DNA of 64,000 bases. Source: Anaerolineaceae bacterium. Lineage in GTDB: Bacteria > Chloroflexota > Anaerolineae > Anaerolineales > Anaerolineaceae. Positions within the stretch are counted from its first letter, which is position 1. Each line of letters begins with the position of its first letter. Positions 46,841-48,356 of this stretch are shown piece after piece. Below the pieces are notes generated by a model, which saw nothing but the letters and a program-made list of their open reading frames with translations, had not been told where the DNA came from and made no database searches. The stretch spans positions 124,001 to 188,000 of the forward strand of contig JAURZL010000018.1 of assembly GCA_030653365.1 (NCBI GenBank), given 5' to 3'. The position numbers were made by a program, and so were the translations under genes.

Positions 46841-47446
46841 ATGGAGAATAAATTGAACACAGAAAACAAACCGATCATGATTGAAGACAATCTTGTTGTT
46901 ACAATGGATTATGAACTAAGTATTGAAGGTGAAGTAGTTGACTCTTCTGATGAAAACGAGCCAATTATTTTTCTTCAGGGTACTGGACAGATCATTCCTG
47001 GTCTAGAAAAATCTATCTATGGATTAAAAGTTGGCGATAAAAAATTAATAATAGTCCAACCAAAAGATGGATATGGTGAGATTGATCCCGAATCGATTGT
47101 AGAGGTACCCAAAGATGAATTTCCAGATGATTTTCCTCTTGAGCTAGGCGTAGAAATCACAGTTCATACTGATAATGAAGAAGAAGAAGTCGAAGAGGAA
47201 GACGTTGAACTGGATGACGACGATGATGATGAAGAAGAAATGGAAGCAACGATTGTTGCGATCAATGAAAAAACAGTCACACTAGACTTTAATCATCCCC
47301 TTGCTGGAAAGGTTTTGACTTTTTCAGTGAACATTCTTGATGTTCGAGAAGCAACTCCGGAAGAATTGGAACACGGCCATGCGCATGGAGATGATTCAGA
47401 GTTTTATTTTGAAGATGAAGATTTCGATGAAGTGGATGAGGATTAA
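46841..47446 (+). CDS. FKBP-type peptidyl-prolyl isomerase (SlyD-like) with acidic and His-containing regions
   Basis: This is a cytoplasmic foldase. The FKBP part is seen in VVTMDYELSIEGEVVDSS, IIFLQGTGQIIPGLEKSIYG and VQPKDGYGEIDPESIVEV, and the insert-in-flap segment follows as in SlyD. An acidic run rich in Glu and Asp (about residues 105-130) interrupts the insert. The C-terminus has HGHAHGDD, a possible metal site. ATG 46841 has no ribosome site of its own; TTG 46853 has GGAG 6 bases upstream and may be the true start (4 residues shorter). A strong terminator follows. Confidence 0.87.
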   Translation: MENKLNTENKPIMIEDNLVVTMDYELSIEGEVVDSSDENEPIIFLQGTGQIIPGLEKSIYGLKVGDKKLIIVQPKDGYGEIDPESIVEVPKDEFPDDFPLELGVEITVHTDNEEEEVEEEDVELDDDDDDEEEMEATIVAINEKTVTLDFNHPLAGKVLTFSVNILDVREATPEELEHGHAHGDDSEFYFEDEDFDEVDED

Positions 47447-47471: not shown

Positions 47472-47502
47472 GTAGACCCTCAGATTGAGGGTCTACCTTT
47501 TT
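47472..47502 (+). terminator. Terminator after the FKBP gene
   Basis: An 11-bp perfect stem GTAGACCCTCA / TGAGGGTCTAC (47472-47482 with 47486-47496), loop GAT, then CTTTTTT. It overlaps the 3' end of the convergent peroxiredoxin gene. Confidence 0.88.
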
Positions 47503-48250
47503 TCCTATTCGTTTTTAAAATTTCCTCTAATTTATCAACTTGATAATCAACAATGATCTGATCTTTTACCTTAATTGTTGGTGTGACCAAATTTCCATCT
47601 GCCCAATTCCGTACTAGTTTTGCAGCTTTTGGATAACGATTAACATCAACCTCACTATAATCAATTTTATTCTCAGTCAGCCATTCTCTCGCTTTTTTAC
47701 AGTCTGGGCACCATGAAGTGCAAAATAAGACAACATCTTTTTTAAGAATGTTATCAATTTCATCGTCATTTTCCATTAAATATACTAAATCTGGTTCTAA
47801 TTCCGAAATTAAATCAAGCAAAACATCGTTTTCTGGTTGTTCATCAATATCATGTATATCGATATATCGGATAATTCCATTTTTATCGATTAAGAAAATT
47901 GCCCTCTCACTACGTCCATCATCTTTCATAACACCATATAGGTTTGCAATTTCACCATGTGGCCAAAAATCACTCAATAAAGGATAATTTACTCCACCAA
48001 GGCTGGTCGCCCAAGCTTCTAGACATGGAATGTGATCTACGCTGATACCCAGAACCTGGGTATTTAATCCCTCGAATGCTGCTCGATTAGCTTCATAACT
48101 TGGGATTTGATTAGATCATATATTTGTAAAAGCTAGTGGGAAAAAAGCTAAAACAACATTCTTTCCAAGATATTTGGACAAGCAAACTGAGCCATTAAAT
48201 GTTGCAGGTAAACAAAAATCAGGTGCTTTATCACCAATTCTTAATTTCAT
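47480..48250 (-). CDS. Peroxiredoxin-glutaredoxin fusion, probable selenoprotein (in-frame UGA as Sec45)
   Basis: Reading from ATG 48250, the frame gives an AhpC/TSA peroxiredoxin (LRIGDKAPDFCLPATF, VVLAFFPLAFTNI), then UGA at 48118-48116, then SNQIPSYEANRAAFEGLN, VLGISVDHIPCLEAWA and YPLLSDFWPHGEIANLYG in the same frame. The UGA falls at the peroxidatic cysteine (TxxC read as TxxU). The C-terminal part (about residues 165-256) is glutaredoxin-like, with FCTSWCPDCKKA. UGA is an ordinary stop in neighbouring genes, and no frameshift is needed. I therefore read one 256-residue selenoprotein. A gene finder would report only the part from 47977. The family is certain; Sec decoding is inferred. 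Confidence 0.82.
48066..48118 (-). promoter_or_regulatory. Candidate bacterial SECIS hairpin following the in-frame UGA
   Basis: Downstream of UGA the coding strand can fold AATCCC / GGGATT (48107-48102 with 48071-48066), with GAAGCT against AGCaTTC above it and the apical loop AATCGAGC starting 28 nt after the UGA. Position and a guanine-containing loop agree with bacterial SECIS elements; the middle of the stem is not fully paired. Confidence 0.5.
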
Positions 48251-48356
48251 AATCAATACCTTTATAAAGTTTTGTATTTAGGTGAAGATAGCCTAATTCT
48301 ACCGTATAATATTCTCAAATAAAATTTAAAAATCGATTCAAACCAAAAATGGAAGT

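Follow-up and report, generated by a model that had tools for sequence, protein, structure and literature searches.

The reading frame and its two domains

Within the window (the whole 64-kb stretch of DNA that was analysed), the minus strand carries a reading frame that starts with an ATG at 48250 and ends with a terminal TGA at 47482-47480, its sole internal stop being a TGA at 48118-48116 (codon 45). With codon 45 read through, the full-length gene (47480-48250, minus strand), which has homologues, comprises 256 codons before the TGA stop. The sequence-only reading had described one frame broken solely by this UGA, and its coordinates were exact. It had also expected automatic callers to report only a fragment, which matches the standard-code ORF list, where the distal piece (47480-47977, 165 aa) stands alone. 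A possible ribosome-binding site, AAAGG, lies 8 nt upstream of the ATG (48259-48263, minus strand). A perfect 11-bp inverted repeat spans the stop codon (47472-47496) and is terminator-like on both strands; with its T6 tail on the plus strand, it is apparently the terminator of a convergent FKBP gene at 46841-47446.

When the TGA was read as Cys, a Pfam AhpC-TSA match ran continuously across codon 45 (residues 5-130, 47861-48238, minus strand; E 2.3e-35) and was followed by a Glutaredoxin domain (PF00462, residues 173-233, 47552-47734, minus strand; E 2.4e-12, 47.3 bits, cut-off 22.9). Both domains were in frame, as expected of the proposed peroxiredoxin-glutaredoxin (Prx-Grx) fusion. None of the listed NCBIfam models scored above cut-off: the selenocysteine peroxiredoxin model PrxU (NF040737) gave 71.8 bits (cut-off 270), the YruB-type glutaredoxin model 53.8 (88.55), the mycoredoxin model TIGR02200 46.9 (89.5) and HUGP/GUXX-star (NF045501) 30 (325). 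Since TIGR02200 stayed under its cut-off, the Grx domain is called mycoredoxin-like only. An AlphaFold2 model of the protein reached a mean pLDDT of 89.1, with a pTM of 0.68, so that the arrangement of the domains is less confident than the per-residue structure.

The nearest solved peroxiredoxin was AhpE of Mycobacterium tuberculosis (E 1.5e-27); the Foldseek TM-score by target was 0.93, and its AhpE rows showed 38-39% identity. When the protein was aligned with relatives (40 loci) and with AhpE, the PxxxTxxC site was identified as P38, T42 and codon 45, together with R116. The UGA thus stands at the peroxidatic Cys position of TxxC, where it had been placed from the sequence alone. Among 88 aligned sequences, P38 was found in 87, T42 in 85 (with Ser in one) and R116 in all 88. 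The Prx domain itself contains C13, C23 and C76, none of them universal in the family: C76 was present in 62/88 and C13 in 4/88, and at position 23 Cys was outside the five commonest residues. C76 could act as a resolving residue within the Prx domain; an AhpE-type 1-Cys mechanism would have no conserved one there.

In the Grx domain, the motif CTSWCPDC (47699-47722, minus strand) provides the redox pair C181/C184, conserved in 88/88 and 87/88 of the aligned sequences, respectively. A near-invariant third Cys, C177 (47720-47722; 87/88), sits four residues ahead of C181 and makes the motif CxxxCxxC. The nearest solved glutaredoxins were 7c10 and, in second place, Rv3198.1 (2lqo), which we take to be mycoredoxin-1.

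No operon partner of the gene was seen in 43 loci, whose flanks were mostly 1.5-3 kb. The neighbour groups shared among these loci were small (9, 7, 6, 6 or fewer loci) and included an unnamed protein, an FKBP and, by reading, an aminopeptidase and a PadR-like protein. Larger groups (33, 14 and 7 loci) have coordinates that overlap the Prx-Grx gene itself on the opposite strand.

Conservation of TGA at codon 45

A search of the order matched 159 of 301 genomes (own genome included) at E <= 1e-10, with fusions among these matches, and scanning genome contigs yielded 132 relatives, the best 80 of which were retained. Of 170 rows inspected, 97 (duplicates included) extended into the Grx domain; at codon 45, 92 of these had TGA and three had Cys, one (L187) was short of the codon and one (L189) had an N there. 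The remaining 73 rows comprised 63 with Cys, nine with TGA and one with Ser. After removal of identical DNA, 88 distinct homologous stretches were left, of which 85 carried TGA and three a Cys codon (TGC, TGT and TGC). The 85 consist of 83 fusions and two contig-end fragments (L191 and L196) whose Grx part lies outside the visible sequence, so that among distinct fusions readable at codon 45, TGA accounted for 83/86 and Cys for 3/86. Because the same codon is TGA in 85 of 88 distinct stretches, its presence here (48116-48118, minus strand, in the motif T-N-I-U) is not due to chance. The comparison with Cys homologues suggested earlier gave the corresponding result: codon 45 is Cys in homologues, and within the family it is the TGA that is conserved.

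In a separate draw of 400 genomes from the phylum, 15 matches were obtained at E <= 1e-40. Four of these covered both domains and belonged to the own genome and three others of its order. The other 11 covered the Prx part or little more, and six of them had a TGA somewhere.

An in-frame TGA also occurs in two other peroxiredoxin-like genes of the own genome, L004 on contig C4 (FTUPFC) and L002 on contig C8 (FTFVU). The C8 locus, of 3.4 kb only, has a GC content of 0.475, unlike the 64-kb window, and may be contamination.

Selenocysteine machinery and the hairpin downstream of codon 45

The genome assembly (4.5 Mb, 20 contigs) is rated 100% complete with 6.18% contamination flagged; the Prx-Grx gene is on contig C3. 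Absence of the selenocysteine (Sec) machinery had been named as the finding that would speak against a selenoprotein. All four components were found on contig C14 above their curated cut-offs: tRNA-Sec (67.1 bits, cut-off 47; called by ARAGORN as tRNA-SeC with anticodon tca), SelB (335.7, cut-off 242.25), SelA (541.9, cut-off 267.9) and SelD (348.2, cut-off 125). In 14 named control genomes, the same models exceeded cut-off in five cases for tRNA-Sec, two for selB, one for selA and two for selD. The tRNA-Sec model alone is therefore not specific, as it passed in 5/14 controls. The window agreed with 11 loci of contig C14 in GC content (0.366 versus 0.371) and in tetranucleotide composition (r 0.993), making contamination an unlikely source of the pairing of gene and machinery. 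The selD gene (L024, C14) has an in-frame TGA of its own near the N-terminus (GUASK), and SelD of this genome is probably also a selenoprotein.

Across Anaerolineales, the threshold of E <= 1e-50 used for the tally gave selA in 246 of 301 genomes; 241 were above the curated cut-off. Of the 81 TGA genomes, 77 had selA (Fisher p 1.6e-4 relative to the remaining genomes in the draw, kinship uncorrected). For this tally, the fragment G085 was excluded, G084 and G200 were unscored, and G123 and G173 were fragments. The four TGA genomes with no selA match were 63, 67, 77 and 88% complete.

A bSECIS-like stem-loop begins 8 nt past the UGA (48066-48107, minus strand), weak in the own copy and clear in the family. 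Over the 85 TGA stretches, the mean z was -2.42 against protein-preserving synonymous shuffles, and for 66 of them five or fewer of 100 shuffles were equally stable. Among other windows, each based on 39-40 sampled genes, those started between 102 and 12 nt upstream gave mean z values of -0.35 to -0.98 (the closest ones overlap the hairpin). Further along, the mean z was -1.86 at +18 and -0.73 at +48, and it ranged from -0.35 to 0.18 at +78 and beyond. The own hairpin, at -12.2 kcal/mol, had a z of -1.14, and 150 of 1000 synonymous shuffles were as stable, which is not significant alone; against dinucleotide shuffles, z was -1.82 (12/200 as stable).

The published bSECIS model, as given in the accessible part of PMC13188914, places 16-37 nt before a loop of 3-9 nt with a G in its first two positions and requires an MFE <= -7.5. 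This energy limit was passed by all 85 TGA stretches, and the full rule fitted 60 of them in the MFE structure and 68 within 2 kcal. The own copy missed the loop-G rule despite its -12.2 kcal. Both-side changes in the hairpin pair count numbered 78 cells, whereas shuffles gave 32.6 and slid versions 21-41. Paired cells made up 79.4%, compared with 71.5% in shuffles and 23.5-54.0% in slid versions, a percentage biased towards the counted structure, which was drawn from single folds; a more even-handed comparison is that of both-side changes with those in slid versions. The covariation score was 0.290 versus 0.184 in shuffles, and two of the five pair-count measures (covarying pairs and pair types) were not above shuffles. 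RNAalifold on the 85 sequences returned no consensus structure, and no Rfam model matched within the 64-kb window at gathering thresholds. Single-domain Cys relatives lacked the hairpin (n=63, mean z -0.12). Overall, comparison of the family sequences supports the downstream hairpin as a point in favour of the Sec reading.

In seven single-domain relatives the peroxidatic codon is TGA, and their mean z was -1.66. Two of them had a strong hairpin (L193 and L195), two a moderate one (L074 and L075) and three a weak one (L071, L072 and L135). The genome of L195 (G002) had no selA match.

The three Cys forms were placed on a midpoint-rooted tree of 85 rows, built from randomly chosen TGA fusions and thinned loci L100-L136, in which the fusion clade had moderate support (92/77). 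In G273, which is 98% complete and has no selA match, codon 45 of the fusion is TGT and the hairpin is absent (z +0.94); this Cys fusion is nested among Sec fusions with a support of 100/96. The Cys fusion of G032 (L054), a genome with selA, is nested in the Sec clade (98/77) and still folds stably (-19.2 kcal, z -1.27), as a recent change would lead one to expect. The form in G175, again with selA present, is divergent and without the hairpin (z +1.37), and its place in the tree is outside the fusion clade. On these sequences, the simplest reading would be a Sec ancestor of the fusion followed by two Sec-to-Cys changes.

A putative selenenylsulfide relay and its alternatives

In the proposed mechanism, SelB and Sec-tRNA(UCA) would decode UGA 45, aided by the hairpin just 3' of it. 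The Sec45 selenolate would reduce a hydroperoxide and become a selenenic acid, which C181 of the attached glutaredoxin would attack; the resulting selenenylsulfide would be resolved by C184 (or C177). We infer the relay from Sec45 to C181/C184 from the conservation of the cysteines, the likeness of the domains to AhpE and Rv3198.1, and the mycothiol- and/or mycoredoxin-dependent route by which AhpE is reduced, according to the accessible text of PMC8945050 and a reference title in the accessible part of PMC10950700. The glutaredoxin would thus be a built-in reductant, as the sequence-only reading had suggested.

The glutaredoxin disulfide would in turn be reduced by a flavoprotein. BshA (127.6 bits, cut-off 273.7) and MshC, the mycothiol ligase model (289.8, cut-off 485.1), stayed under cut-off in the own genome, where the glutamate-cysteine ligase model PF04262 had no match; the search for low-molecular-weight thiols consisted of these three models and is not proof that such thiols are lacking. 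A thioredoxin reductase was found over cut-off. On contig C18, L003:1507-2706 encodes a thioredoxin-reductase-like flavoprotein joined to a glutaredoxin (CSDC). This Grx-thioredoxin reductase fusion is a possible electron donor, and either it or thioredoxin reductase could plausibly complete the cycle.

Codon 45 very probably encodes selenocysteine. A nonsense mutation in a pseudogene, or a TGC or TGT misread as TGA, might be entertained for an assembly of many contigs and for a fusion clade in which two Cys forms are nested, and yet this explanation is very improbable: 83 of 86 distinct fusions have TGA at the same codon, the sequence past it is conserved (C181 in 88/88) and the genome has the Sec machinery. 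Hardly more credible is insertion of an ordinary amino acid, or leaky readthrough that involves no Sec. Any code in which TGA is read would leave the frame open, but TGA also ends this gene, homologues have Cys at codon 45, and tRNA-Sec, SelA and SelB are all encoded in the genome.

The relay has a more serious rival, in which the protein is a selenoprotein whose Grx has its target in another subunit or in different proteins, with Sec45 served by thioredoxin or, where present, by C76. The uncertain domain arrangement (pTM 0.68), the thioredoxin reductase over cut-off and the presence of C76 in 62/88 sequences are in keeping with such a division of labour, which we nevertheless regard as unlikely, given that C181 is invariant and C184 near-invariant in the fusions, that C76 is missing in 26/88, and that the domains resemble AhpE and Rv3198.1. 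We are confident, overall, that the gene encodes a selenoprotein, its UGA 45 decoded by SelB, in which an AhpE-like Sec peroxiredoxin is joined to a YruB/mycoredoxin-like dithiol glutaredoxin. Sequence comparison establishes the conserved UGA, the Sec machinery, the family hairpin and the two domains; Sec insertion, peroxidase activity, the proposed relay and its last electron donor are inferred. A more specific version can be put forward tentatively: a selenoenzyme widespread in Anaerolineales that would combine an AhpE-mycoredoxin-like couple in one chain, use no glutathione, bacillithiol or mycothiol, and pass electrons by a Sec-S relay from Sec45 to the CxxxCxxC glutaredoxin, to be recharged directly by the Grx-thioredoxin reductase fusion.

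Relation to known systems and significance

The hybrid Prx5-Grx proteins of Haemophilus influenzae and its relatives have an N-terminal Prx and a C-terminal Grx and are glutathione-linked, Prx5-type and Cys-based. The domain order is common to both, whereas the protein described here is AhpE-like and Sec-based. With the selenocysteine peroxiredoxin of Eubacterium acidaminophilum (PF00578, TxxU; PrxU) it shares the peroxidatic Sec and the motif PxxxTxxU. It differs in its score under the PrxU cut-off and in a Prx domain nearest to AhpE among solved structures; to our knowledge, the PrxU type has no Grx domain. M. tuberculosis AhpE and mycoredoxin-1 (Rv3198.1) are the nearest solved Prx and second-nearest solved Grx for the two domains, but they are two separate Cys proteins, in contrast to one Sec chain in a genome whose MshC match is under cut-off.

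That TxxU peroxiredoxins occur in bacteria, as assumed from the outset, is in line with the listing in the accessible part of PMC13188914, where the TxxU peroxiredoxin is an experimentally verified selenoprotein. For the GOS metagenome, the accessible part of PMC2398784 describes Prx-PP2C fusions, which resemble Prx-Grx in joining a Sec-family Prx to a further domain and differ in the partner. HUGP/GUXX-star (NF045501), in the accessible part of PMC13188914, is a Grx-like fusion selenoprotein with another first domain. The accessible parts of the table in that 2026 review, which catalogues 119 families/subfamilies, name no Prx-Grx TxxU fusion; the portions of PMC9312934 and PMC1794560 at hand show no Prx fusion with Grx, and the terms fusion, glutaredoxin, peroxiredoxin and Prx are absent from the main text of PMC12013277. 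No report combining selenoprotein with peroxiredoxin-glutaredoxin was found in the open-licence literature, which is not proof of absence, and none of a Prx-Grx fusion was seen among the open-licence papers listed for selenoproteins in Anaerolineae, Chloroflexi or Chloroflexota.

The gene adds a conserved selenoprotein architecture, present only as a fragment in a standard ORF search, to an order in which selA is common. As the peroxidase and its likely reductant are in one polypeptide, the selenenylsulfide relay becomes testable on a single chain. A natural experiment on giving up Sec is offered by the pairs of Sec and Cys fusions, with one Cys form lacking the hairpin in a genome that has no selA match.
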